The notes beneath the pieces were generated by a model. The model saw nothing but the letters and a program-made list of their open reading frames with translations, did not search any database and was not told where the DNA came from. From positions 496,001 through 560,000 of the forward strand of contig CANMWO010000001.1 in the NCBI GenBank assembly GCA_947501695.1: 64,000 nt of DNA, given 5' to 3'. The stretch is from an uncultured Sphingomonadaceae bacterium. Lineage in GTDB: Bacteria > Pseudomonadota > Alphaproteobacteria > Sphingomonadales > Sphingomonadaceae. The translations under genes were made by a program, and so were the position numbers. This document shows positions 104-14,187 of this stretch, in pieces. Position 1 is the first letter of the stretch. Each line of letters begins with the position of its first letter.

Positions 104-445
104 TCAGATGCCGTAGCGTTTTTTGATATAGGCGAGCACGGCGCTACGGCGATTGCTTTTGATCTCAAAGCGGCCAGCGCGCACCGCCTGAGCAACTTCA
201 GGCGCTGTTTCACGATTGAGCTTGTTATGATACTCACAGCTTTTGCAGGTGATGTACCTGCGCACTTGTGCGCGGCCCCGCGTGATCACACGATTCTCAT
301 TTGAGATAAGGCTGTTGTTGCCTTTTCTGACATCCGTGCCCCAATCGTTGCCAGCGGTACCGCGGCCAGACGAACCCGAAGCAAATGCAACTGTAGAACT
401 GGCAACCAACGCTAACAATGTGGCAGAAATCAATACTCTCTTCAC
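104..445 (-). CDS. Small secreted CxxC protein, copy 1 (uncharacterised family)
   Basis: 113 aa, with a GTG start preceded by an AAGG-like site. Residues 1-22 look like a Sec signal peptide. The mature part begins Gly/Ser/Asn-rich, and the C-terminal half carries ITCKSCEY (Cys67 and Cys70), then a basic stretch ending AVLAYIKKRYGI. The C-terminal ~50 residues match the protein at 4469-4804: ITCKxCEY, VxAGxFxxK, RxAVLxY, RYxI. The CxxC is followed by Glu, not His, so it is not a normal haem c site. It could be a degenerate cytochrome domain or a metal or redox thiol site. I recognise no named family. The export prediction is fairly safe; the function is unknown. Confidence 0.75.
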   Translation of the reverse strand: MKRVLISATLLALVASSTVAFASGSSGRGTAGNDWGTDVRKGNNSLISNENRVITRGRAQVRRYITCKSCEYHNKLNRETAPEVAQAVRAGRFEIKSNRRSAVLAYIKKRYGI

Positions 446-795: not shown

Positions 796-1377
796 ATGCA
801 GCTATTTTGGAAAATCCCTCTTATTGGTCGGGGCATATTCGCTGTCTGGGAAATTGACGCCAAGCGGAAATACCGGTTGACAAAAGACGGGATCAAGCGA
901 GCGGACAAGTTGCTTGAGATTGGTTCAGGCCCTGGCAGCGTTGTAAAGGTTTTTCGTGAACAAGGGCTGGATGTGACGGCGCTGGATATAGCCGACAACG
1001 GCTTTACGGATGACCTGAAACCTACCATATATGATGGCGATATCATGCCATTTGCGGACCGGTCATTTGATATCGCTTTGCTCCTGACCGTGTTGCACCA
1101 TACGGCTGAGCCGGACAACATCTTGCGGGAAGCCGGGCGCGTTTCAAAAAGATTGATCATTATGGAAGATGTCTATGACACTCCATTTCAGGCCGCTTAC
1201 ACCAAGCTGACGGACAAGATTACCAATATGGAATTTATCGGTCATCCCCACAGCAACCGGTCACATGCCGAATGGCTGGAAACTTTTGACCGCATGGGAT
1301 TCACCCTTCGCCACAGCGAAATCCATAGAGTAGCAAAATTTTACCAGCAGGCGGTCTATATCGTGGACACAGAATGA
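796..1377 (+). CDS. Class I SAM-dependent methyltransferase
   Basis: 193 aa, with GAGG 9 nt before the ATG. Motif I is EIGSGPG (residues 41-47); the acidic residue that would bind the ribose lies in VTALDIAD (~60-67). Motif IV-like LLTVLHHTAEP fits a Methyltransf_11 fold. The substrate cannot be read from the sequence. At under 200 aa it is compact but complete: the C-terminal strands and the closing VYIVD are present. It lies just upstream of the DUF547 and glycosyltransferase genes, so a role in surface-glycan or arsenosugar modification is possible but is inference. Confidence 0.8.
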   Translation: MQLFWKIPLIGRGIFAVWEIDAKRKYRLTKDGIKRADKLLEIGSGPGSVVKVFREQGLDVTALDIADNGFTDDLKPTIYDGDIMPFADRSFDIALLLTVLHHTAEPDNILREAGRVSKRLIIMEDVYDTPFQAAYTKLTDKITNMEFIGHPHSNRSHAEWLETFDRMGFTLRHSEIHRVAKFYQQAVYIVDTE

Positions 1378-1500: not shown

Positions 1501-2454
1501 ATGAAACATCGCTATATCGCTCTATTGTCCCTTCTCGTTTCTGCGCCCGCACAGGCGGCGGGTTTTGATCATTCCAGCTGGAATGATCTTTTGGCCGAAA
1601 ATGTTGAAATGGTGCCGGACGGCAGTTCCTCGACTGTAAACTATGCAGAATTTGAGGAAGACCGTGCCGTGCTGAAATTCTATCTGGATGCGATGGCTCA
1701 GGTCAGCCGCGCTGAGTTTGATGCCTGGTCGAAACCGGATCAACTCGCTTTCCTGATCAATGCCTATAACGCCTGGACGGTCGAATTAATTCTTAGGCAA
1801 TATCCCGATTTGGTGTCGATCAAGGAACTGGGGTCGCTAACCCAGTCACCCTGGCAAAAGGCTTTTATCCCGCTCTTGGGCGAGACATTATCGCTCGACA
1901 ATGTCGAGCATGACATTATCCGCGGCAGCGGACTATATAATGACCCTCGCATCCATTTTGGTGTGAACTGTGCAAGCATTGGTTGCCCGGCCTTGCTCAA
2001 CGAAGCATTTGTTGGAAGCAAGTTGGAACAACAATTGGATATGATGACCAAGGGTTTTTTGAGCGACCGCACTCGTAACCGGCTTGAGGATGGAAATCTC
2101 GCTGTGTCGAGCATCTTCAACTGGTATGGTGATGATTTTGAACAAGGCTGGCGCGGCGCCGAAACGCTGGACGAATTTTTCGCGCTTTATGCCGATAGTC
2201 TTGGGCTGTCCGCCGCTGATGTCGAAGCGCTTGATAGCGGTGATATGGAAATTACATTTCTGGAATATGACTGGCGGCTCAATGATAGCAAAGGACCGGG
2301 CACCGTCAAGAATTCGAACTTCATCTCGCCAATTTGGCTGATAAGGTCAAACCCCATGCTCGGGGCCGCAGCTGGCGGTGTTCTGTTGGTGCTAGTTGGC
2401 GGAACCATATTTTTCATCCGTCGGCGGCGCCGCAGGAAAGCAACGCAAGCTTAA
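1501..2454 (+). CDS. DUF547 domain protein, secreted and C-terminally membrane anchored
   Basis: 317 aa, ATG with AAGG 6 nt upstream. Residues 1-19 are a signal peptide (cut near AQA-AG). The DUF547 core shows FLINAYNAWTV, the cysteine motif NCASIGCPAL and a closing FLEYDWRLN. Near the C-terminus is one hydrophobic helix (AAGGVLLVLVGGTIFFI) followed by a poly-Arg stop-transfer tail, so the domain should face the periplasm with the tail in the cytoplasm. The biochemical role of DUF547 is not established. Its stop overlaps by 4 bases the stop of the convergent glycosyltransferase gene. Confidence 0.85.
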   Translation: MKHRYIALLSLLVSAPAQAAGFDHSSWNDLLAENVEMVPDGSSSTVNYAEFEEDRAVLKFYLDAMAQVSRAEFDAWSKPDQLAFLINAYNAWTVELILRQYPDLVSIKELGSLTQSPWQKAFIPLLGETLSLDNVEHDIIRGSGLYNDPRIHFGVNCASIGCPALLNEAFVGSKLEQQLDMMTKGFLSDRTRNRLEDGNLAVSSIFNWYGDDFEQGWRGAETLDEFFALYADSLGLSAADVEALDSGDMEITFLEYDWRLNDSKGPGTVKNSNFISPIWLIRSNPMLGAAAGGVLLVLVGGTIFFIRRRRRRKATQA

Positions 2455-4472
2455 CGGAAGAAAGCTTCCCGCCCGATAACATATAATATCTTATTCCCCG
2501 CGAGCAGCACGCCACGAACCGTACCTGATATTTTCGATATACCGATGCGGCGACGGTAATTGGCCGGACGTTCGGTTATGCGCATATCCTGTTGCACAGC
2601 CTTGACCTGCATCTCAATGGTCCAACCAAAATCCCTGTCTGCCATATTCAGACTCTCAAGCGCATCGGCACGAATAGCTCGGAACGGACCGAGGTCGGTC
2701 ATTCTTTTGCCCCAAATCAGCCAGATCAATCTGGTCGCAAGCCAATTACCAAATTGTTGCGGGAAGGTCATGGCCCCTGCCTGCTTTTGCCCCAAGGCCC
2801 GTGATCCGATGACCAGATCGGTGGTGCCATCTATCAGCGGTGCAATCAATGCAGGGCCTTCCTCCGGAACATCTGCACCATCCCCGTCCATGAACAGAAA
2901 TATATTCGTATCTTGAGGGGCGGCAGCTATACCCGCCAAACACGCAGCGCCATAGCCGCGCTTTGGCTCTCGTATAATTGTCGCCCCGGCGGCCAGCGCC
3001 TGTTGCGTGGTGTCGTCGGTAGAGCCATTGTCAGCGACAATAATGCGAGGCGGGGCAGACCAGTTTTGCGATTGGAGATCGCGAACGACCGCTCCGATTG
3101 AGTTTTCCTCGTTCAGTGCCGGGATAATGACGGCGACTTGAGGCTGCGCAATTGGTGTGCGCAAAACCTCTGTCGGATCGCCAGCGTTGTTTTCTCTTTG
3201 AAACCGCAGAAAATCCCAGCCAGCCGCGGCCAGCAATATAATGATCTGAGCCACCCAAGCCATCCAATGCACTTCAAAATCCCTCAGCGCCGGGTTTTCA
3301 AGGTTAAGCCCCGTCAGATAGCTGAGCGGCAATGCGACTGCCGCCGCGAAAGGCCAGACCATGCGGCTTTTTGTCGCAAACGGTAATATCCACAATAGAT
3401 ACCAGGCGTTCACCGCGGGTGCGAACAGCAGAATAATGCCGAATATCATCGCTATCGGTGCAACTTCTAAACTGCGGGTTCGGGCATGTAGGACCATGAT
3501 GATACCAATACCGATCAATGCAGCGCTCAGCCTTGCTATCGAGGAAGGCAGCAGGGCATCAAGCAACGCAAAGCCCATGGGGTTATAATACCAATCAGCC
3601 GCGAAAATGCCGGTTGATTCGAATCCTGCACCCTGTCCCTGGAACAGGAAGATGCCATAGATAACCGCCGATGTTGCCATAGCCGATGCCACGGCCCGCC
3701 ATCCCATTCGCAAAAGCAGGGGCCAAAGGGCGAGCGCGACAATTTTGGCACCTGCGGCTAATCCGAAGAATAAGCCAGCGGCCAGCGGATAACGCTTTGC
3801 CAATAATATTCCCGCCAGCAGCAACATTGCCATTATGCCGTCGGGATGAATGTGAATGATTGTTTCTGCCAATACCAAAGGGCACCAAGCATATAGTGCT
3901 GCTTTTTCAGGACTGGTCCAACGTAGCAGCAACGCCACGAGGATCAGGTTGATGATAGCAAAAACTATCCGCAACCCTATCGGATCCGTGCCAGCGGACA
4001 GATAGGCCAGCGAGAATATAAATTGCAACGTTGGGCCGTAAATTGTCGACAAATGCGGATTGTTCACTCCATCCAGGGTCAGCGCAAGCCTGCTATCGGG
4101 GAGTGTCTTTCCAAAAAATTCGGCCGGCGCAACACCATAAGGTGTACCCGATATTATCGACCTCCAGCCATCCCAAATGAACCGGAAATAGTCATCTTCA
4201 AAGGCTGCAAAGCCAAAGATCGCCATGATATGAAGAATCAGGGCAACGCCGAATACCGTTCGGACCGTCAATGCCGTTGATCGCCAGATGCCGATGAAAA
4301 CGGCCAAGCTACCAAAGCTCAGCAACGCAACATAGGGTAGGACAGTGCTTTCATCGCTTTGCGATAACAACACAAGCCCGGCGGTGGCCGCAATTGCCAC
4401 CACCGCAGTCAATATAGTGGAAAATCCCATTGCTATGCCGTCAGGCCGGGCGGCAGTCGCTTGTTGGCTCAA
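2451..4472 (-). CDS. Fusion of multi-pass GT-C-like membrane protein with GT2 polyprenyl-phosphate sugar synthase
   Basis: 673 aa. Residues 1 to ~430 are about a dozen hydrophobic helices of mannosyltransferase type (RFIWDGWRSIISGTPYG gives an acidic residue in the first large loop). Residues ~445-673 are a GT2 domain: VAVIIPALNEENSIG, ADNGSTDD, then MDGDGAD as the metal-binding DxD, closing like dolichol-phosphate mannosyltransferases. One polypeptide may thus make a lipid-linked sugar and transfer it. The TTG start overlaps the TGA of the upstream small protein (TTGA). An ATG at 4430 is the alternative start; neither has a strong ribosome site. The acceptor is unknown. Confidence 0.82.
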   Translation of the reverse strand: MSQQATAARPDGIAMGFSTILTAVVAIAATAGLVLLSQSDESTVLPYVALLSFGSLAVFIGIWRSTALTVRTVFGVALILHIMAIFGFAAFEDDYFRFIWDGWRSIISGTPYGVAPAEFFGKTLPDSRLALTLDGVNNPHLSTIYGPTLQFIFSLAYLSAGTDPIGLRIVFAIINLILVALLLRWTSPEKAALYAWCPLVLAETIIHIHPDGIMAMLLLAGILLAKRYPLAAGLFFGLAAGAKIVALALWPLLLRMGWRAVASAMATSAVIYGIFLFQGQGAGFESTGIFAADWYYNPMGFALLDALLPSSIARLSAALIGIGIIMVLHARTRSLEVAPIAMIFGIILLFAPAVNAWYLLWILPFATKSRMVWPFAAAVALPLSYLTGLNLENPALRDFEVHWMAWVAQIIILLAAAGWDFLRFQRENNAGDPTEVLRTPIAQPQVAVIIPALNEENSIGAVVRDLQSQNWSAPPRIIVADNGSTDDTTQQALAAGATIIREPKRGYGAACLAGIAAAPQDTNIFLFMDGDGADVPEEGPALIAPLIDGTTDLVIGSRALGQKQAGAMTFPQQFGNWLATRLIWLIWGKRMTDLGPFRAIRADALESLNMADRDFGWTIEMQVKAVQQDMRITERPANYRRRIGISKISGTVRGVLLAGNKILYVIGREAFFR

Positions 4473-4804
4473 GGAACGATGCTATAACGTTCAGACATAT
4501 AATAGAGTACGGCTTGCCGCTGCCTATCTTTCAGATTAAACTCGCCAGCTTTCACCCTGGCGGCGACTGCACGTGCTGTTTTACCATCGGTAAAGCCACC
4601 CTTATACTCGCACTTCTTGCAAGTAATACGCTTTTTGAACGCTCTTTTGCCTTTGCTAAACGCCGCTGCACGAGGATCGCGTGGTTGAGACGCGCCAAAT
4701 CCGCCACCGCCACTATAACCTCCGCCGCCACCGCCGCCAGACGCCAATGCCGGTGCCGCAACCATCATAGATACTGTTGCCAAAATTAAGCTCAGCTTTT
4801 TCAT
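4469..4804 (-). CDS. Small secreted CxxC protein, copy 2 (uncharacterised family)
   Basis: 111 aa, ATG with a strong TAGGAG site. The signal peptide is residues 1-22, followed by a glycine-rich linker and RITCKKCEY (Cys62, Cys65), then a basic C-terminal domain ending YYMSERYSIVP. It is a paralogue of the protein at 104-445. It overlaps the start of the membrane/GT2 fusion by 4 bases, so the two are probably co-translated, linking this family to cell-surface glycosylation. The function is not recognised; the conserved Cys pair could bind metal or act in redox. Confidence 0.8.
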   Translation of the reverse strand: MKKLSLILATVSMMVAAPALASGGGGGGGYSGGGGFGASQPRDPRAAAFSKGKRAFKKRITCKKCEYKGGFTDGKTARAVAARVKAGEFNLKDRQRQAVLYYMSERYSIVP

Positions 4805-4996
4805 TTTGCACTCCTAAATTATCAGTCTGGGTTTTGAACCCTCAGTATAATTTCGGAGAAGCATAGCATTTTGTTACAGGCTGGTTTGAAAATAATGAAA
4901 TTTATGTAACGATATAGCCGTTTCAATCGAACCATGTGCTACTCAGCCGCCGTCATAAGGACACCAAAGCATGCTTATTTTGGCCGGACCCGGCTC

Positions 4997-5581
4997 ATGA
5001 ATACTGTTCGGTTGGTGCTCTTCACCCGTTATCCGGTTCCTGGATCTGCGAAAACACGGCTGATCCCGGCATTGGGCAAAGACGGGGCGGCGACCATACA
5101 TAAGCAGCTGACCGAGCGAACAGTGGAGACGCTAAAGCAAATCGGTGAGCCTCTCGAAATCCGGTATAGCGGCGGTGATGCGAATGCCTTTAACCGTTGG
5201 TTGGGTAGCGACCTTATTTATGAACCGCAGGTAGAAGGCGACCTGACAGACCGTCTATTGGCCGCGATCGACCCCGCGCCTGTCATATGTTTAGGGTCCG
5301 ATACGCCTGATTTATCTGCCAGCCATTTGAATGCGGCGATTGATGCTTTGCAAAAGTCCGACGTAGTTATTGGGCCGGCAGATGACGGCGGCTATTATCT
5401 TATCGGCATAGCAAAGCCCTATCCCTTTCTATTTCAAAATATGCGCTGGAGTACGGAACATGTTATGCCCGATACGCTTGATCGATTGCGACAGCACAAG
5501 ATTGGATTTGAGATTTTGGAAACATTGCATGACTGCGACCGCCCTGAGGATCTGGATCGATGGCCATGGCTGAATCCATAA
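4997..5581 (+). CDS. TIGR04282-type (DUF2064) sugar/nucleotidyl transferase, arsenosugar-associated
   Basis: 194 aa from ATG 4997, which gives the typical N-terminus MNTVRLVLFTRYPVPGSAKTR; the open frame extends 63 nt further up but without family character. Features are a GT-A-like N-terminus (FTRYPVPGSAKTRL), ICLGSDTPDLSASH and GPADDGGYYLIG, as in DUF2064. The family is found next to TIGR04283 glycosyltransferases in arsenosugar or rSAM-associated clusters. The next gene starts 22 nt before this one ends, so they form an operon. The reaction is unproven; a transferase acting on an activated sugar is likely. Confidence 0.85.
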   Translation: MNTVRLVLFTRYPVPGSAKTRLIPALGKDGAATIHKQLTERTVETLKQIGEPLEIRYSGGDANAFNRWLGSDLIYEPQVEGDLTDRLLAAIDPAPVICLGSDTPDLSASHLNAAIDALQKSDVVIGPADDGGYYLIGIAKPYPFLFQNMRWSTEHVMPDTLDRLRQHKIGFEILETLHDCDRPEDLDRWPWLNP

Positions 5582-6306
5582 ACCGGGTTACTATATTGAT
5601 CCCGATGCTTAATGAAGAACGGGCATTGCCCAACACTTTGGATTGCGTCAGATCGCTGGATCCACCGGCGGACCAGGTTTTGATTGTTGACGGTGGCAGC
5701 TCCGATGCCTCTGTCGCGCTTGTGCAGGCAGCGGGACTGAAAGTCATCGGTGCACCAAAAACAGGACGCGGAGCACAGATTAATTTCGGAGTACGGGAAG
5801 CGCAGGGTGAGATTGTCTGCATACTACATGCCGACAGCATATTGCCAACAGATGCCGTTACAGTGATCCGTTCTGCGATGGCCGACGGAAGAACGGGTTT
5901 GGCCAGCTTCACACCGCGTATCGCTGGACCACAGGGTACCCGTTGGGGTTCGACCCTGCATAACTGGATAAAGACCTGGTACGCGCCACTCCTTACTCGG
6001 CCACATTTGTTCATTCGCGGTGTGCGGCTGCTATTCGGTGACCATGCGATGTTTTTCAGGCGGGAACAGTTTCTGGAAATTGGTGGCTGCGATGAGCGGC
6101 TGGTGGTGATGGAAGAAGCCGATCTTTGCATCAAGCTGTCCCGCTTTGGCAAAATCCGTATGATACCGCGCTGGGTCTGGACTTCGGATAGGCGAATTAC
6201 TGCATGGGGCCGATGGCGGGCCAACTGGATTTATCTGAAAGTTGGAATGATGTGGGCCATGGGTGCCCGCGAACGACTAGCTGATGAATATCCCGATATT
6301 CGCTAA
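5560..6306 (+). CDS. TIGR04283-type GT2 glycosyltransferase, arsenosugar-associated
   Basis: 248 aa. The GT2 fold shows ILIPMLNEERALPNTLD, IVDGGSSDAS, ARGAQINFG-like GRGAQINFG, and the catalytic DxD equivalent LHADSILP. The closing WGRWRANWIYLKVGMMWAMG is typical of the family. It overlaps the preceding DUF2064 gene and is convergent with the SDR-ArsM run. In characterised arsenosugar loci this family is thought to build the sugar part; here that is inferred from context. Confidence 0.87.
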   Translation: MAMAESINRVTILIPMLNEERALPNTLDCVRSLDPPADQVLIVDGGSSDASVALVQAAGLKVIGAPKTGRGAQINFGVREAQGEIVCILHADSILPTDAVTVIRSAMADGRTGLASFTPRIAGPQGTRWGSTLHNWIKTWYAPLLTRPHLFIRGVRLLFGDHAMFFRREQFLEIGGCDERLVVMEEADLCIKLSRFGKIRMIPRWVWTSDRRITAWGRWRANWIYLKVGMMWAMGARERLADEYPDIR

Positions 6307-6318
6307 CCTTATATAATC

Positions 6319-6345
6319 TGGCCCGACGTTTATTGGGCCATTTTA
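6319..6345 (+). terminator. Hairpin with short T-run after the transferase pair
   Basis: Stem TGGCCC / GGGCCA (6319-6324, 6335-6340) with a 10-base loop, followed by TTTTA, begins 13 nt after the TIGR04283 stop. It overlaps the last codons of the convergent SDR gene. The short T-run makes it a moderate terminator candidate. Confidence 0.45.
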
Positions 6346-7400
6346 CGGGGTGGTCGCGCATCGCGGATGAAACCGCTTTTGATGCAATGCTCGATCATTC
6401 TTTCCAATGCTGCAAGATCAACGGTTGGGCAGGTTCGTCCATTGATTTGGCGTAGATTGTCGGTTTTAAAGTGGGGACAGCGTTGAAAATAGCTGGCGTA
6501 AAAAGCAGCAACATGCGTGTGTAGTCGACGTTCCAATTCCGGTAATTCTTGAACGGCGAAGATCTCAGGACGCAATAAACTGGGCGGATCCAAATGGTCA
6601 AACAGGCTAATCGCTTCGGCGAGCAGGGTAGTGGGAATAGCAGCACCTGACGTAAGGTGAATAATCTGCCCCTCCGCCTTGTCCCAATGGCTTACAATGT
6701 CAGTCAGTCCGCCCACAACATGGTCGATAGGAACAAAATCCAGCGTCGCCTCGGTCGCTACGGGGAGCCGAGTAATATGACCTTCTGCAATCAATCGGAA
6801 CAGCTGATAGAAGCTATCAAAGCGATGAAAGCTGCCATCATCATGTGCCCCAACAACGATGCTGGGCCGAGCAATGACTGCGCGCCTGTCCGCTGCGAGC
6901 ACCAGCGCCTCTCCCGCCGCCTTTGATCGCTCATAACCATTAGCGAAAATCTGATCAGGTGCGCATGCTGCTTCGGCAATTGGTCCGTCTTTAAGTCCGC
7001 AAACATAAGCTGTGCTTACGTGAAGGAAGCGGGCATTGGGTAAGGCCGCAAGAACATTGAAGACACCATTAATATTGACGGTTTGATAGACATCTGCGCA
7101 GGCATTGAAATCAGTGGTAGCGGCACAATGAATGACCAAATCAATCTGGTGCTGGAGCAATATCAAGGCGCGATCATCGAGACCAAGTTTGGGCAATGTC
7201 ACATCTCCGGTCAGCTTTGCTACGCAGCCAGCTTCAGGCATGACATCTGCAAAATCGCTAGCGGCCAACAACCGCCCGTCATTTGCATATATGTCGCGAG
7301 TTTTCCGGACCAGCGCGACGACCGCATGGCCAGCGGCAACCAACCGCGCAGTGAGCTCTCCGCCGATAGTTCCCGTTGCACCTGTGAGCAATATATTCAC
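6330..7400 (-). CDS. SDR / NAD-dependent epimerase-thioester-reductase-like protein
   Basis: 356 aa from a GTG at 7400, giving VNILLTGATGTIGGEL; the frame stays open upstream, but that part overlaps ArsM and lacks family character. The Rossmann motif is TGATGTIG, the catalytic tyrosine/lysine are in GYERSKAAGEAL, and HVSTAYVCG supplies the Ser/Thr. The architecture is closest to the NAD_binding_4 (male-sterility/thioester-reductase) branch of SDRs. It starts 4 nt after the ArsM stop, so the two are coupled. A role in finishing an arsenosugar or arsenolipid is context inference only. Confidence 0.8.
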   Translation of the reverse strand: MNILLTGATGTIGGELTARLVAAGHAVVALVRKTRDIYANDGRLLAASDFADVMPEAGCVAKLTGDVTLPKLGLDDRALILLQHQIDLVIHCAATTDFNACADVYQTVNINGVFNVLAALPNARFLHVSTAYVCGLKDGPIAEAACAPDQIFANGYERSKAAGEALVLAADRRAVIARPSIVVGAHDDGSFHRFDSFYQLFRLIAEGHITRLPVATEATLDFVPIDHVVGGLTDIVSHWDKAEGQIIHLTSGAAIPTTLLAEAISLFDHLDPPSLLRPEIFAVQELPELERRLHTHVAAFYASYFQRCPHFKTDNLRQINGRTCPTVDLAALERMIEHCIKSGFIRDARPPRKMAQ

Positions 7401-7404
7401 GGTG

Positions 7405-8460
7405 TCAGCAGCAAGGCGCTGGATCTGCTTCTGCACCGCTCGTGACGGATGTATAGGGCATGCTGCTGCCGCATCCTTCAAACACGCCATAGTGACGAGA
7501 AAAGTCGCCAATAAAATCAAAATAGGGCGCGAAGCGTGTGTCGGACAGCATACGCCATGAATTACCGCAAATCGGAAAAACCCGGCCGACCTCGATCGTG
7601 TGTCCCTTGTCCAGTTCGAACAGGCGCTCCTGTCCCTCTATGCCGCCTTTGTAGATCACGGCTTGACCATAATCTTCGCACTCAGGCTCAAGCTCCTCAA
7701 GTTTGAAAAGTCGATAGGTTGCCGAGTAGAAATTTATTCCATCCAGCATTTCGACAATTCGCGCATCACCAATGCCAAGCGAGCGATCTTTTACCAGACG
7801 CGGGTCGTCGAAACCGGCGCTCTTCGCCTGTGCCATGAAATCACCCCAATACAGGGCGCCGGAGAGGCATTCACCGTGAAGGACCGGATCATCCAGCAGA
7901 TCCGCTGGCACGCGGCGGTCGGCATAGACATCGGAAAAATACAGCTCGCCACCGGGCTTCAAAAGATTGAAAGCTGCCCGAAAAACCGCAGCTTTGTCTG
8001 CCACCAGATTAATGACACAGTTGGAGACGATAATGTCGAAACTGTTGGGTTCGAGGTTCAATTCGTCAAGCTTTTCAATATCGCCTTCGATAAAGCGGAC
8101 ATTGCTTTGCGCATAGCCAAAGCGTTCGCGGTGCCATTCGATATGGCGATTGGCGACTTCGAGCTGCGCAGCCGTAGCATCAACGCCGACAACGGCGCCA
8201 TCTTCGCCAACAAGTTGCGCCAACAAATAGGCGTCTTGGCCTGATCCAGAACCCAGATCGAGTATGCGCGCGTCATCGATTAATTGCGGAGTAACAAGGC
8301 CGCAACCATAATAACGACCTTTCACTTCTTCATGCACGTTATCCAGTGCTGCTCTGACGCGGGCATCCGGCGCATCGGCCATGGTGCAGGCGTCAGTCAG
8401 TAGGTCGGATGTTCCTGCAAGGACTTCCCCATAATATTTCTGGCTATTTTCAAGTTTCAT
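7405..8460 (-). CDS. arsM: ArsM-like arsenite S-adenosylmethionine methyltransferase
   Basis: 351 aa from ATG 8460, chosen because GGAGCC lies just upstream; a longer frame to 8496 has no such site. SAM motif I is ILDLGSGSGQDAYLL. Cysteines sit where ArsM binds As(III): TDACT near the N-terminus, SNCVINL, and HGECLSGALYWGDF. A C-terminal domain adds FPICGNSW and ends in CC. This length and the tail match the longer arsenosugar-type ArsM. The enzyme would methylate arsenite to mono- or dimethylarsenic in the cytoplasm. It lies between the pit and SDR genes. I see no ArsR-type regulator in the window. Confidence 0.88.
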   Translation of the reverse strand: MKLENSQKYYGEVLAGTSDLLTDACTMADAPDARVRAALDNVHEEVKGRYYGCGLVTPQLIDDARILDLGSGSGQDAYLLAQLVGEDGAVVGVDATAAQLEVANRHIEWHRERFGYAQSNVRFIEGDIEKLDELNLEPNSFDIIVSNCVINLVADKAAVFRAAFNLLKPGGELYFSDVYADRRVPADLLDDPVLHGECLSGALYWGDFMAQAKSAGFDDPRLVKDRSLGIGDARIVEMLDGINFYSATYRLFKLEELEPECEDYGQAVIYKGGIEGQERLFELDKGHTIEVGRVFPICGNSWRMLSDTRFAPYFDFIGDFSRHYGVFEGCGSSMPYTSVTSGAEADPAPCC

Positions 8461-8787: not shown

Positions 8788-9873
8788 CTAGGCTGAAAAT
8801 GTCATTACCATCCATGCAATGGTTCCTGCCAGCGGCAACGTGCCGACCCAAGATAGAAGGATCGTCCGGACCGTTGATCCGGATAACGTCTGCGCGCCCG
8901 CGCCCACACCAGTAATCGCGCCAACACTGACATGGGTTGTGGATACCGGTAGGCTCTTGAAACTCGCAGCGAGAACAAGCGCTGCAGTGGTTAGGTTGGC
9001 GGTTAATCCCTGTGTTGGAGTAAGAGTGGTGATTTTCTGGCTCATCGTTTCGGCGACGCGGCGTGAAAGCAATAGTCCGCCCATAGCCACCGCAATCGCA
9101 ATGGCAACCAACGACAATATCGTGTTGCCAACATTTACCACGACCATCAAACCTGCAAGCTTTGGCGTGTCGTTGACCGAGCGGGCAAAACAGATGGTTG
9201 CAGCAGATGCGATATGAGCAGAATTGAGTGTCTTGCTAACCGAAACACGGGTAGCTTCAGACCCATGAACAGCGCAGGCTTGATCCGTGGCAATGACAAC
9301 TGCAGGCACAGTCAGGGCCCGTTTCATGGTGCCGTCATTTATTACTTGGGGTGCCGTTTTTACAACACACACACAGTCTGTTTGAACGTTTCTCTTCGTT
9401 AGAAATCTGTAGACCAAATAACCGATGAAAGCCGAAACAAACGGACTGACCAGCAAAGGCAAGATGAAAGCCGAACCCAAGTTACCGACGTTGACCGCGC
9501 CTGCGCTGCTTGCAAGTCCGGCCCCAATCAGACCGCCGACCAGTGCATGGGTCGTTGAAATGGGCAGGCCAACCCGCGTCGCAATCATTACCGCCGCAGC
9601 CGCACCGCTCGCGACCGCAAGCGCAAAGGAAGGCAAGGCAACAATTTCATCCGGAACCAGGCCCTTGCCCGAAAATTGTTTTACCAGACCATGGGCGAGC
9701 AAAATCGACAGCAAACTGCCGGCCAGCGCAGCAATTGTCGCGATGATTAACGCTTTACGGTAATCAAGGGTTGCTGAACCCCATACGGTAGCGAAGCCTT
9801 TGAAATTGTCATTCGCTCCATTTGCGAAGGCAAGGAACAGTGCTGCCGCTATAACCAGTATTATCGTCATCAT
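8788..9873 (-). CDS. pit: PiT-family inorganic phosphate permease
   Basis: 361 aa from ATG 9873, supported by AAAGGG about 7 nt upstream; the open frame extends 66 nt further. It has about ten membrane helices and the duplicated PiT signature: FANGANDNFKGFATVWG and LPISTTHALVGG in the first half, CFARSVNDTPKLAG and LPVSTTHVSVGA in the second. It imports phosphate (and, as known for Pit systems, arsenate) with cations. Its position directly before arsM suggests either competition with arsenate or supply of arsenic to the pathway. Confidence 0.92.
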   Translation of the reverse strand: MMTIILVIAAALFLAFANGANDNFKGFATVWGSATLDYRKALIIATIAALAGSLLSILLAHGLVKQFSGKGLVPDEIVALPSFALAVASGAAAAVMIATRVGLPISTTHALVGGLIGAGLASSAGAVNVGNLGSAFILPLLVSPFVSAFIGYLVYRFLTKRNVQTDCVCVVKTAPQVINDGTMKRALTVPAVVIATDQACAVHGSEATRVSVSKTLNSAHIASAATICFARSVNDTPKLAGLMVVVNVGNTILSLVAIAIAVAMGGLLLSRRVAETMSQKITTLTPTQGLTANLTTAALVLAASFKSLPVSTTHVSVGAITGVGAGAQTLSGSTVRTILLSWVGTLPLAGTIAWMVMTFSA

Positions 9874-9942
9874 ATACCCTTTGTCTATTGGCAAAGGTTC
9901 GGTCTGATGAACGCGATAGTTACATGCCGCTGGTCGCAAACA

Positions 9943-10491
9943 TCAATATCGGGTGTTTTCCTGGTCTTTGACCATACGGCCCCAAACCGGATTATAGGGA
10001 TGGATATATGCGGTTGGTTTCGCTCCGCCAGTGTAAAGCGGGCGGCTTTCATTATGCCATTTGAAAATCCCGCCCTCCAGATTATAGGCCGCTTTCGCAC
10101 CCGACAATATCAAAGCGCCTTGCACCCGGTCAGCAAGATCGGAAGACCGCTGGCCAACCGAACAATAGAATATCGCGGTTTTTCCTTTCGATATGTCAAT
10201 ATATTGCGCGATAAAATCTTGCGCCGACATACTCGGGTCAACATGAATTGCATCCTTGAGATGACTGACAGAATATTCCGACATCTCACGCACATCGAAC
10301 AGCACTATGCTCTCTTTGTTCATGGCTGACAGACCATCGCCATCAACATGAGCCACCTCGGAAAATTGGCTTTTTATTCCGTCATGGACTTTCGCAAGGC
10401 CGCCATCATCGCTGGTTAATAACATAGAGCCCGCCGCAATTAGCGGACTGCAAAGCAGCGTTGCGATGAAAATTTTTGCTTTCCACTTCAT
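9943..10491 (-). CDS. Periplasmic rhodanese-domain protein
   Basis: 182 aa with an N-terminal signal or anchor helix (residues ~6-24). The rhodanese core includes LFDVREMSEYSVSHLKDAIH and the active-site loop FYCSVGQRSSDLA with its catalytic cysteine intact. It should bind or transfer sulfane sulfur outside the cytoplasm. It starts 9 nt after the sterol-desaturase gene and precedes pit by 69 nt. In this arsenic neighbourhood a link to thio-arsenic chemistry is conceivable but unproven. Confidence 0.85.
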   Translation of the reverse strand: MKWKAKIFIATLLCSPLIAAGSMLLTSDDGGLAKVHDGIKSQFSEVAHVDGDGLSAMNKESIVLFDVREMSEYSVSHLKDAIHVDPSMSAQDFIAQYIDISKGKTAIFYCSVGQRSSDLADRVQGALILSGAKAAYNLEGGIFKWHNESRPLYTGGAKPTAYIHPYNPVWGRMVKDQENTRY

Positions 10492-10500
10492 TCCGCATTC

Positions 10501-11445
10501 CTAGCTTTTTGGTCCAAAAGGGCGCAGCATATAGTCGCGTAGCGAAGCGATCGGTGGATATCCATCAATGCCAGTCTTTGGAAATTCTCCATCTTTCGGC
10601 ATATATTGTGTGCCAAATATACGATCAAAAAATGAAAAAAAGGACGCATAATTTTTACCGATGTGGCGGACATCACGTGTGTGATGTTGATGATGGTAAA
10701 CATTGTCAGCAACAACATGACGCAGGGGCGCAGGAAATGACAGCGCCGGAGCATCAGAATGCATGTAATAATTAGATATCAGATAAAATGTGGTTACCAG
10801 CATGATATGCTGCTGCGGAGCGTCGATCAAAAGTACCAGCGGCGTTGTAATCAGCAATATGTAGACTACATCCTGCCCGAAATGGGAATAGCTGCGGGCC
10901 GCATTTAGGTCTTCAATCTGATGATGGATGGCGTGAAAGCGCCACAGAAAATCATAGTAATGCAACGCACGATGTAACCAATATTCCATCAAGCCCAACA
11001 ACAAAAGATAAGCTAGCGGAAAAGCGACAAGCACAGGCCCTAGGTCACCGGCCGCAAATAGTGGCCGCACGCCCAATGACCGCAATAAGCTAAACTCTGC
11101 CGCTTGAACCAATATAGAAATTGCTAGCGCCGTCACGCTATAGATCAAGCCATCGCGATATCGGATACGAAAATCTGAAAAGCGCAATTGCCGCCATTCG
11201 ACGATGACAAAAAGCCCAGCCACCGCCAAAAAGGTAAAGATACCGTTGGTCAAGACCACAATCAGATTCGCAACCAGCGACCCAATTTCCATGTCTAGTA
11301 ACGAAAGCTCCAGTCGTTGCTGTATCCAACCGGCGACATAGAGCAACAGTTCCGCAGTCATCAGCAGTACCGTAAAAGTTGTAATGAAGTACCAATAGCC
11401 ACGTTGCTCGACCTGCTTGCCGGTAATGTTCGGAATCTTTACCAT
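10501..11445 (-). CDS. Sterol desaturase / fatty acid hydroxylase superfamily membrane protein
   Basis: 314 aa with four to five hydrophobic helices. The di-iron histidine clusters are visible: EYWLHRALHYYDFLWRFHAI continuing into HH, then HSDAP, then NVYHHQHHTRD. It closes with FDRIFGTQY, standard for the superfamily. It would use a di-iron centre and O2 to oxidise a lipid C-H bond at the inner membrane. It is the first gene of the minus-strand run with rhodanese, pit, arsM and SDR. The substrate is unknown. Confidence 0.87.
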   Translation of the reverse strand: MVKIPNITGKQVEQRGYWYFITTFTVLLMTAELLLYVAGWIQQRLELSLLDMEIGSLVANLIVVLTNGIFTFLAVAGLFVIVEWRQLRFSDFRIRYRDGLIYSVTALAISILVQAAEFSLLRSLGVRPLFAAGDLGPVLVAFPLAYLLLLGLMEYWLHRALHYYDFLWRFHAIHHQIEDLNAARSYSHFGQDVVYILLITTPLVLLIDAPQQHIMLVTTFYLISNYYMHSDAPALSFPAPLRHVVADNVYHHQHHTRDVRHIGKNYASFFSFFDRIFGTQYMPKDGEFPKTGIDGYPPIASLRDYMLRPFGPKS

Positions 11446-11762: not shown

Positions 11763-12572
11763 TCAGTTCAACCGAACGTCTCCATTGATTATCTCGGGAT
11801 AATCAGCGCCGGTGCGCTGTTCCTCAGTACATTCTTGAAGAGGTGGTTTTTTGGGATCTTCAAATCCTACTAAAGTCTCAGGAATTATCGACATGCTAAC
11901 AGACTCAGGAATGTTCTTCTTGATTGAGGTTACCAACTGCTCCGGTGTCTCAGCCCAGCGACCACTGATCCGTTGGTTTGTTAATTTCTGATATGTTTCA
12001 TTTTTAAATACGAAACTACCAAAGCTTGTCGCAACCGCAGCATAACCAATTCCTGTATCCTCAGACCGAACGAAGCAAATAGGTTCTTTTAGTTCAAATG
12101 GTCGGGTCAACAATATGCTTGGAACTCCGATGTCTTTGTAAAAGGATGACTCCTCGGATGCTACTTCCGAGTATCCTCCAACCTCATCCTCAGCACCGCT
12201 TTGGATCAGTATTTCCATAATAAATGTGCTGGTTTGGTGAAAAGCTACGACCGCTCCTGCTTCAACAATCAGAGATTTCGTACTTGGCATAAGCCATTGG
12301 GCGCAAGCCGACAGGCAATATTTTTTGACAGTTAATTCATAATTTCTCTCTCGAATAATCTGACCTATCGAAATAGCGGTAAGAGTATCGCCACCTTGGC
12401 TAGTGATTTCAATTTTTCTAATGCTATTAGGTAGATTTTCGATGTGTAGCAGCAAGTCAGGATTGATCCGTCCTTCTATTTTCAATGTGTCGCCTTCCGA
12501 GGCAGCTTGCGCACTGCAACTTCCAAACAGAATTGCAGCTAAAACAATAGATTGGAGAAAAATTTTTTTCAT
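11763..12572 (-). CDS. Secreted ClpP/crotonase-like (COG3904-type) hypothetical protein
   Basis: 269 aa with a clear signal peptide (residues 1-23, cut at AQA-AS). The core looks like a periplasmic ClpP-fold protein: ITSQGGDTLTAISIG would form the oxyanion strand, KYCLSACAQWL supplies a candidate nucleophilic serine, and VVAFHQTS a histidine. After that it is low in recognised motifs. It is AT-richer than its neighbours and sits between two palindromic repeats, which hints at a separately acquired segment. The protease-fold reading is by motif only. Confidence 0.65.
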   Translation of the reverse strand: MKKIFLQSIVLAAILFGSCSAQAASEGDTLKIEGRINPDLLLHIENLPNSIRKIEITSQGGDTLTAISIGQIIRERNYELTVKKYCLSACAQWLMPSTKSLIVEAGAVVAFHQTSTFIMEILIQSGAEDEVGGYSEVASEESSFYKDIGVPSILLTRPFELKEPICFVRSEDTGIGYAAVATSFGSFVFKNETYQKLTNQRISGRWAETPEQLVTSIKKNIPESVSMSIIPETLVGFEDPKKPPLQECTEEQRTGADYPEIINGDVRLN

Positions 12573-12891
12573 AGCTAAGTTTTGCGGGTCAAAGGCAGTA
12601 ACGCAACAGAATTATGGTGAAAGTTGTTATAATCTTTGCGTCTTCGACCCCAATTCCTAGTGTCCGCTTTTGCGCCCAAAGCGGACATTGGGTTTGTCTA
12701 ACGACGATTTGTCAAAGCATGTTTCAACATAGAACCGCCGCGGGTCGTACTATTTTCTTAATCACACAGACCGAAACATTCTTGTCTTACTGATCTGGAT
12801 TGCTCTACGCTGCTCGCCAATCGATCTAGATGTTGAGCCTTGATCGCCAGGCTCTGATTTTTTGATTGGATCACCAACTTGGGGCAGTTTG
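12573..12891. other. Divergent intergenic region with palindromic repeat
   Basis: This 319-base gap lies between the ClpP-like gene (minus) and the serine hydrolase (plus). It contains the type 1 palindrome at 12662-12686 and nothing else that I can support. Confidence 0.5.
12662..12686 (+). repeat. Palindromic repeat, type 1 (best copy)
   Basis: Perfect 9-bp arms GTCCGCTTT / AAAGCGGAC with loop TGCGCCC. It is followed by ATTGGGTTTGTC, and related flanks follow the copies at 14189 and 19335. It would form a strong hairpin in RNA or DNA. Confidence 0.85.
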
Positions 12892-14187
12892 ATGGGAAGA
12901 TATTTGGCGCCACTGTTCGGACTTGCCGCAATATTGCTCGTCGGCTGGTATGGCTATCGCGCCTTCGTTCAGGAAGAGATCTCATTTCCGCTAGCCGAAA
13001 GCGCCGAAGCTGCCCCACAGGATCGATTGCCGACTGAACCAGATGACTGGCAAGGCAAGATTGATTATCTCAACCTTAATCGACGCGTTGCAGCGCTCGC
13101 GGCACGTCCTGAAATGGCAGGGCTAGCTGTCGCAATTGTCGAGGAAGGTGAGATTCGTTTTGTACAAACCTATGGCGTGACTGATAAACGCAGCGGAGAA
13201 CAGGTGACGCCACAGACCGTTTTTCGTTGGGCTTCGGTATCAAAGGGCGTGGCGGGCTCACTCGCGGCAAAATTGTCAGAAAAAGGTAAGCTTGATCTCG
13301 ACTCGACACTGAACCGCTGGCAAACGTCGCTCAAGCTTCCCGGAGAAGCTATGTCACGGATCACGCTGGCACAGCTTTTGTCGCACCAGACCGGTCTCAC
13401 CAAAAATGCATATGACCGCAAACTGGAGGATGGAGAAAGCCCAGGCCTACTCCGTACAAAGTTAGGAACTGCGCCGCTCCAATGCATGCCCGGTACCTGC
13501 CATAGCTATCAGAATATTGCTTTCGATACCGCCAACGAGATTTTAGGACAGGCGGCGATGACTATGTATGACGACGCTGCCCATAAGCAATTGTTTGAAC
13601 CGCTTGGTATGGAGAGTGCGCAATTCGGGATGATAGGCTTAACCGGCGCTGACAGCTGGGCGCGACCGCATCGCGGCGATACAGTGCGGACACTTGTGGA
13701 ATCATATTGGCGTCTTCCAGCAGCAGCCGGTGTTAGCAGCAACATTGTGGATATGGCGCGCTGGCTTCGTGCGCAGATGGGTGCGAATGAAAATATCCTG
13801 TCTGACCAGATGCTGGAGGTTGCTCATGCACCCTTGGTCAGCACTGGGAGGGTATATGGCGGCGATCTCGCTCGCGCTCTGACGGAGCCGTCTTATGGAC
13901 TGGGTTGGCGCAATTTTACTTATCATGGCCGGCGATTGATCGGACACAGCGGTGCGGTGGATGGCTATCGCGCGACAATTATATTCGATCCCGCCGCCCG
14001 AACGGGGGTTGTTGCGATGTGGAACAGCGGCTGGGGAATGCCCTTTCGGATACCCTTTGCCGCGCTTGATAGCTATTACGGCCAATCCGCAAGCAGCCAA
14101 ACCGAAAACGACTGGCTGGACCTGTCCGATCGGCCACCTCCCGATACCTTTCAATCGTCGATGCCCGACAATCAACCCGGTCGTTAG
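12892..14187 (+). CDS. Beta-lactamase-family serine hydrolase, membrane anchored
   Basis: 431 aa from ATG 12892, with GGGG upstream. An N-terminal helix (residues ~5-22) anchors it with the catalytic domain outside. The penicillin-binding/AmpC-type motifs are present: SVSK (in WASVSKGVAG), YQN (CHSYQNIAFD) and HSG (RLIGHSGAVDG). It could be an esterase, a D-aminopeptidase or a peptidoglycan hydrolase; nothing shows that it breaks beta-lactam drugs. Palindromic repeats lie on both sides (12662 and 14189). Confidence 0.87.
   Translation: MGRYLAPLFGLAAILLVGWYGYRAFVQEEISFPLAESAEAAPQDRLPTEPDDWQGKIDYLNLNRRVAALAARPEMAGLAVAIVEEGEIRFVQTYGVTDKRSGEQVTPQTVFRWASVSKGVAGSLAAKLSEKGKLDLDSTLNRWQTSLKLPGEAMSRITLAQLLSHQTGLTKNAYDRKLEDGESPGLLRTKLGTAPLQCMPGTCHSYQNIAFDTANEILGQAAMTMYDDAAHKQLFEPLGMESAQFGMIGLTGADSWARPHRGDTVRTLVESYWRLPAAAGVSSNIVDMARWLRAQMGANENILSDQMLEVAHAPLVSTGRVYGGDLARALTEPSYGLGWRNFTYHGRRLIGHSGAVDGYRATIIFDPAARTGVVAMWNSGWGMPFRIPFAALDSYYGQSASSQTENDWLDLSDRPPPDTFQSSMPDNQPGR

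Follow-up and report, generated by a model that had tools for sequence, protein, structure and literature searches.

Genes of the ArsM locus and remnants beside ArsM

We analyzed a putative arsenosugar-type gene cluster, centered on an arsenite methyltransferase (ArsM), in a 64,000-nucleotide stretch of DNA from an uncultured Sphingomonadaceae bacterium (GenBank assembly GCA_947501695.1; positions 496001-560000 of contig CANMWO010000001.1, here C1), which is termed the window below. Parasphingorhabdus is among the closest name-bearing protein matches of the window genes. The original prediction recognized TIGR04282- and TIGR04283-type transferases, a short-chain dehydrogenase/reductase (SDR), and a long, Cys-rich ArsM in this region, and all four genes proved to be real. 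The TIGR04282 (DUF2064/CofC-like) transferase gene at 4997..5581 (+), which has an additional in-frame ATG at 4934, scores 191.6 bits, above the family cut-off of 134, and the TIGR04283-type family 2 glycosyltransferase (GT2) gene at 5560..6306 (+) scores 174 bits, slightly below its cut-off of 182. The SDR, of the NAD_binding_4/Epimerase type (PF07993, 134 bits), is encoded at 6330..7400 (-) on the downstream side of ArsM, separated from the ArsM stop by 4 bp. The ArsM-like protein is encoded at 7405..8460 (-) and reaches 151 bits with the NF008823 model (cut-off 263) and 92 bits with the arsenosugar ArsM model NF038099 (cut-off 400). Despite these scores it looks like a functional arsenite methyltransferase, because its nine Cys residues, the terminal Cys-Cys among them, are conserved without exception across 76 aligned rows, the window protein and 75 relatives.

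The region had also been described as free of radical S-adenosylmethionine (radical-SAM) genes over the whole 64 kb. This holds for intact genes, as none of the ten PF04055 matches of the genome falls inside the window, but the decayed fragment of a radical-SAM gene is present directly upstream of ArsM. The four closest relatives of the locus (L131-L134, with L134 from Sphingorhabdus sp. EL138) encode ArsM proteins 92-93% identical to that of the window and have the same gene order with two extra intact genes, encoding a 5'-methylthioadenosine (MTA) phosphorylase and a radical-SAM protein of ~319 amino acids (aa), inserted between ArsM and the gene for a Pit-type phosphate, possibly arsenate, permease (8788..9939 (-) in the window; PF01384, 212 bits). 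The spacing between the Pit and ArsM genes is 327 bp in the window vs 1992 bp in the relatives. In the window, the segment 8508..8689 (+) matches the intact radical-SAM genes of L131-L134 (tblastn E about 1e-15) in pieces spread over three reading frames that correspond to residues 254-319 of the relatives' protein. Because the segment matches the C-terminus of a gene that is intact at the equivalent place in all four relatives, the radical-SAM gene is decayed at the window locus. The adjoining segment 8691..8732 (-) corresponds to the first 14 codons of the MTA-phosphorylase gene (71% over 14 residues); with an E value of 0.34 against the window, this match is not significant alone, but its position and an 81% blastn match of 205 bp on the same side lend it support. 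The SDR and both transferases of the window have open frames and are 82-92% identical to their counterparts in L131-L134.

An intact homologue at a second locus

A whole-genome search for the classical radical-SAM partner of ArsM, ArsS (TIGR04167), gave no match over the cut-off of 300 bits, the best match scoring 57.5 bits. Nine of the ten radical-SAM proteins of the genome exceed the cut-offs of other named families (MoaA, MtaB, MiaB, HemW, BioB, RimO, LipA, RlmN, and PA0069), and were ruled out as ArsM partners on this ground. The tenth, a protein of 319 aa, is over the cut-off of no NCBIfam model: it scores 95 bits with the Rv1681 family (NF049973, cut-off 380), and 57.4 bits with ArsS. 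Its intact gene, a homologue of the decayed window copy, lies at C1:1340706-1341665 (L013:9707-10666), about 836 kb from the window ArsM, in an operon-like row with a second TIGR04283 and a second TIGR04282 gene and tail to tail with an MTA-phosphorylase gene. The second TIGR04282 protein scores 185 bits (cut-off 134), the second TIGR04283 protein 172 bits (slightly below the cut-off of 182), and the MTA phosphorylase 449.3 bits, above the NF006492 cut-off of 437. Between the window and the second locus, the TIGR04282 transferases are 61% identical and the TIGR04283 transferases 73%. An acyl-CoA ligase gene at 12301-13920 (-) of the L013 stretch shares the strand of the second TIGR04282 gene and lies upstream of it; it is only a possible member of the pathway.

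Each genome of the four relatives has a single match to the ~319-aa family, which is the gene at the ArsM locus itself. The radical-SAM gene of the second locus does not group with the local genes of L131, L133, and L134 but falls into another clade with good support, which makes an old duplication or an acquisition a more probable origin of the second locus than a relocation of the local copy. The suggestion that ArsS might be encoded outside the window is thus borne out in part. A radical-SAM enzyme apparently in the ArsS position exists 836 kb away, but by the cut-off it is not a TIGR04167 member, and it is only a remote ArsS homologue, with similarity significant over the radical-SAM core alone.

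Relation of the ~319-aa family to ArsS

We compared the ~319-aa family with ArsS sequences obtained from 27 of 30 loci; two radical-SAM loci (L019 and L038) had no usable frame, and 56 rows, 46 of them distinct, were kept. The ~319-aa family has the CxxxCxxC radical-SAM motif, and in a global alignment this motif, a Met-Cys in the middle of the protein, a further Cys, and the C-terminal triple-Cys of both branches of the family stand in the same columns as in ArsS. A C-terminal Cys pattern ending in G-x-x-C/U, defined after the alignment had been inspected, is present in 45 of the 46 distinct ~319-aa-family sequences and in 26 of 27 ArsS sequences, and in none of the nine other radical-SAM proteins of the genome. 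According to the available text of one report, TIGR04167 has the selenocysteine motif GxxU (PMC13188914), and the last Cys of the ~319-aa family aligns with this selenocysteine position.

The radical-SAM core of the family matches ArsS with an hhalign probability of 97.5% (E 5.7e-12), as compared with 95.9% (E 5e-9) for a MoaA control, so that the match to ArsS is only moderately better than that to MoaA. Between the C-terminal halves of the two families no significant similarity was found (hhalign probability 1.2% and 11%). Structure models were obtained for the ~319-aa protein, with a mean predicted local distance difference test score (pLDDT) of 79.7 and values below 50 in residues 1-13, 51-65 (the cluster motif), and 310-319, and for ArsS, with a mean pLDDT of 68.8. 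Both models match BlsE (7vob) and SkfB (6efn) best, so that an ArsS-like enzyme is not separable from other radical-SAM enzymes by this comparison, and sequence searches of solved structures yielded other radical-SAM enzymes as partial matches only. Since the evidence for homology stops at the core and does not extend significantly to the C-terminal halves, we do not class the ~319-aa protein as ArsS; it probably works like ArsS.

Gene context of ArsM in related loci

Relatives of the window ArsM were sought in named records, which yielded 78 loci, and two partial, weak matches (L207 and L208) were dropped from these. For the remaining 76, stretches of up to 10 kb on each side were analyzed, 17 of them being shorter than 20 kb. 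Within these stretches, a gene of the ~319-aa family occurs in 30 loci, ArsS in 10, and neither in 36. The ~319-aa radical-SAM gene is divergent from ArsM in 28 of the 30 loci, with a gap of 94-222 bp in 19, 1.5-1.9 kb in nine, and 3.4 and 6.2 kb in two; the nine gaps of 1.5-1.9 kb hold a gene for a MerA/Lpd-like FAD oxidoreductase. The two cluster types correspond in part. TIGR04282 was found in 27 of 30 loci with the ~319-aa family and in 10 of 10 ArsS loci, TIGR04283 in 28 of 30 and 10 of 10, the SDR in 21 of 30 and 0 of 10, and a nearby MTA phosphorylase in 16 of 30 and 1 of 10. The oxidoreductase is encoded in 16 of 30 ~319-aa-family loci (five at only 32-38% identity) and in all ten ArsS loci (29-41%). 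At such low identity in five of the 16 and in all ten ArsS loci, its presence in both cluster types amounts to a family-level similarity. A tblastn search with the oxidoreductase gave no match in the window or in the second-locus stretch. The oxidoreductase recurs across the loci L131-L163 and L177-L204, it is accompanied by TVP38 in nine of the ten ArsS loci, and it is also present in four of five clusters that have no ArsM (L044-L048).

A distant branch of the ~319-aa family, 33% identical over 302 columns, is found at the locus L043. There, the genes for the radical-SAM protein, TIGR04283, MTA phosphorylase, TIGR04282, Pit, an arsenate-reductase-like protein (64 bits, cut-off 174), and ArsM form a row on the same strand.

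Co-occurrence of the families in genomes

To the loci we added counts from whole genomes. The 47 ArsM genomes that were searched whole, which include all 36 with neither family in the stretch, comprise 31 with the ~319-aa family, 15 with ArsS, none with both, and one with neither (L191, a metagenome-assembled genome of 2.2 Mb). The other 29 were judged from the stretch alone (19 with the ~319-aa family and 10 with ArsS). In a sample of 147 genomes from the order of the window's organism, the ~319-aa family is present in 54 and TIGR04282 in 56, with 52 having both, and ArsS over the 300-bit cut-off was found in 0 of the 147. Among the genomes of this sample with a strong ArsM match (31 of 32, a weak match in G015 being excluded), 30 have the ~319-aa family, and the exception is a genome that is 69% complete. 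Divergent ArsM-like proteins, with open frames of ~380-400 aa and two stretches matching the hidden Markov model, were observed at L075-L081, in ~319-aa-family genomes without a strong match to the window ArsM.

In a sample of 299 genomes from the phylum, the ~319-aa family occurs in 22 genomes (five at only 33-35% identity), all 22 of which have TIGR04282, and ArsS occurs in 114, of which 102 have TIGR04282. The count of 114 includes two partial matches below the cut-off (298 and 239 bits), with 112 being over it. The two families do not overlap in any genome of this sample, and 24 genomes have TIGR04282 with neither radical-SAM family. Fisher p-values for these associations are very small and are descriptive only, since the genomes are related and not independent and significance is overstated.

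Neighboring genes of the window

Several further genes flank the cluster. Beyond Pit, a rhodanese-domain protein is encoded at 9943..10491 (-), its nearest model being NF045521, 'rhoda_near_glyco' (93.6 bits, cut-off 145), followed by a fatty acid hydroxylase family protein at 10501..11445 (-) (PF04116, 79 bits), which is kept in the L131-L134 loci. On the other side, also kept in L131-L134, are a small SAM methyltransferase at the locus edge (796..1377 (+); PF08241, 49 bits), a DUF547 protein (1501..2454 (+); PF04784, 84 bits), a membrane-type protein with a C-terminal GT2 domain (2451..4472 (-); PF00535, 76 bits), and a small protein with a signal-like N-terminus and a TCKxCEY motif (4469..4804 (-)), for which an NCBIfam search gave no match. 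A related small protein is encoded at 104-445 (-); the two are 41% identical over 61 residues and share the ITCKxCEY motif and signal-like N-termini. Relatives of the 4469-4804 protein were seen in nine of the 30 loci with ArsM and a ~319-aa radical-SAM gene.

Proposed pathway

According to the available portion of one report, ArsS adenosylates arsenic in oxo-arsenosugar biosynthesis (PMC12159101). In our best reading, the ~319-aa family would fill this position, the formation of the C-As bond, in an arsenosugar-type pathway. The ancestral cluster would have comprised TIGR04282 and TIGR04283, the SDR and ArsM, the radical-SAM and MTA-phosphorylase genes, together with Pit, rhodanese, and others, and the local radical-SAM and MTA-phosphorylase genes would then have decayed to fragments in the genome of the window. 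On this reading, the window likely holds one half of a split arsenosugar-type cluster, and the homologues at the second locus most likely supply the lost function. From the observed gene content, remnants, synteny, and co-occurrence we infer a chemistry for every step. Arsenate may enter by Pit and be reduced, after which ArsM would methylate As(III) to a dimethylarsenical. The radical-SAM enzyme, acting as ArsS does, is predicted to place the 5'-deoxyadenosyl group of SAM onto arsenic. MTA phosphorylase cleaves 5'-substituted adenosine; for this reason, and as a frequent neighbor, it is a candidate for the depurination step, in which adenine would be removed to give a 5-arsenical ribose 1-phosphate. 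A later loss of adenine, brought about by a nucleosidase, has been proposed for an algal arsenolipid in the accessible part of another report (PMC10456119). A ribose 1-phosphate product would suit activation by the TIGR04282 protein as a nucleotide sugar, and TIGR04282 proteins give weak matches (37-39 bits) to the CofC guanylyltransferase model. The TIGR04283 protein may then transfer the sugar to an acceptor, and the SDR may act on the sugar or the acceptor without making the C-As bond.

Alternative explanations

As one of two options, the original prediction had offered a new route in which the sugar-arsenic step falls to the SDR or the first methyltransferase in place of a radical-SAM enzyme. 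The lack of an ArsS over the cut-off in the genome and the position of the SDR directly downstream of ArsM would be consistent with such a role. However, the genome encodes an intact radical-SAM protein whose gene is linked to TIGR04282 and TIGR04283 transferases, a radical-SAM fragment adjoins the window ArsM, and the first methyltransferase was seen in only four of the 76 ArsM loci. The SDR was rejected as the C-As enzyme, being absent from 9 of the 30 loci with ArsM and a radical-SAM gene and kept in all five ArsM-less clusters L044-L048. The enzyme that seemed to be missing is accounted for by a local gene that has decayed and an intact homologue at another place in the genome, so the new-route reading is unsupported, and we regard a sugar-arsenic bond made by either protein as highly improbable.

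Several observations weigh against the split-cluster explanation. By profile, the ~319-aa family is nearer to Rv1681 than to ArsS, both scores being below the cut-off, and its C-terminal half shows no significant similarity to that of ArsS. MTA phosphorylase has an ordinary role in salvage as well, and only 16 of the 30 loci have it nearby. In the order sample, 24 of the 54 genomes with the ~319-aa family have no ArsM of the window type; an NF008823 search (E up to 1e-15) of these 24 found a divergent ArsM-like protein in nine, only matches of 58-67 bits in six, and nothing in nine. The five clusters L044-L048, from the family of the window's organism, keep the SDR, TIGR04282, TIGR04283, and the radical-SAM gene without ArsM, and in 11 stretches the ~319-aa radical-SAM gene has no other reference gene near it (L049, L054, L056, and L058 in ArsM genomes; L059, L061, L063, and L066-L069 in genomes without this ArsM). 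Given these ArsM-less genomes, ArsM-less clusters, and solitary genes, the substrate could differ from the ArsM product: either methylated arsenic is supplied externally or by a different enzyme, or arsenic is not the substrate in every case.

The same three observations, together with the failure of the enzyme to reach the ArsS cut-off, are what would be expected if the module of radical-SAM enzyme, TIGR04282, TIGR04283, and MTA phosphorylase made a non-arsenical sugar compound, for example of another metalloid, with ArsM as a frequent but separate methylation neighbor. We consider this unlikely, as 30 of the 31 strong-ArsM genomes have the radical-SAM family, a near-complete dependence in that direction, the family alternates with ArsS with no overlap in the 47 ArsM genomes, and the L043 row joins it to arsenate-reductase-like, Pit, and ArsM genes. 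A further possibility is a pathway in decay: once the radical-SAM and MTA-phosphorylase genes at the window locus had been lost, ArsM would be left with detoxification by methylation as its sole role, and the second locus would have another purpose. The remnants do show gene loss at the window locus, and the surviving homologue, placed in another clade than the genes of L131, L133, and L134, is probably not the moved local copy. Nevertheless, the open, well-conserved frames of the window SDR and both transferases, and a second locus with the same kinds of transferase and an MTA phosphorylase, make decay of the pathway improbable.

Comparison with known systems

The clusters resemble the ArsM-ArsS arsenosugar pathway in having ArsM, TIGR04282, and TIGR04283 together, often with a MerA/Lpd-like oxidoreductase, and the ~319-aa family shares with ArsS the CxxxCxxC core and the C-terminal triple-Cys motif. 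They differ in that ArsS is absent, its place being taken by a ~319-aa radical-SAM protein that reaches 57 of 300 bits and aligns over the core only. In the arsinothricin cluster arsQML, as far as the available text describes it (PMC8552651), ArsM is likewise paired with a C-As-forming radical-SAM enzyme, ArsL; the arsinothricin ArsM model, however, gives the window ArsM 132 bits against a cut-off of 500. Among the families listed as matches of the genome's ten radical-SAM proteins, none bears the ArsL name, the existence of an ArsL model in that collection not having been checked. The bisenarsan bsn cluster of Streptomyces also leads to an organoarsenic product without ArsS, but according to the accessible portion of the report it needs BsnM, BsnN, and BsnJ and no SAM-dependent enzyme (PMC12159101), whereas the window has ArsM, with a radical-SAM partner elsewhere in the genome. 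The Rv1681 family is the nearest NCBIfam profile to the ~319-aa protein (95 bits; 109 bits for a member of clade B), yet these scores are far below the 380-bit cut-off, and the best-matching stretches, of 152 and 176 residues, cover mainly the core. In the available text of five reports, ArsM and ArsS are the only enzymes assigned to steps of bacterial arsenosugar synthesis (PMC12159101, PMC8552651, PMC10456119, PMC9312934, PMC13188914). Titles and opening lines of abstracts among the matches listed from the open-licence PMC literature named no radical-SAM partner of ArsM besides ArsL and ArsS.

What is noteworthy beyond the window is a radical-SAM family, unnamed in NCBIfam, that alternates with ArsS. 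On balance, we lean toward the view that it is a second C-As-forming radical-SAM family, present in the class of the window's organism and beyond it in the phylum, which replaces ArsS one for one in arsenosugar-type clusters and works alongside MTA phosphorylase and a TIGR04282 enzyme that activates the sugar. As ArsM is missing from some clusters, the family may have a substrate range or a product unlike those of the classical arsenosugars. The decayed window copy illustrates how a false new route can be suggested by a search confined to one named family or to a single window. The non-overlap of the ~319-aa family and ArsS makes the assignment directly testable. If it is correct, the clusters suggest MTA phosphorylase, TIGR04282, and TIGR04283 as candidates for depurination, activation, and transfer, and many bacteria that appear to have ArsM without ArsS would have a cryptic radical-SAM partner.

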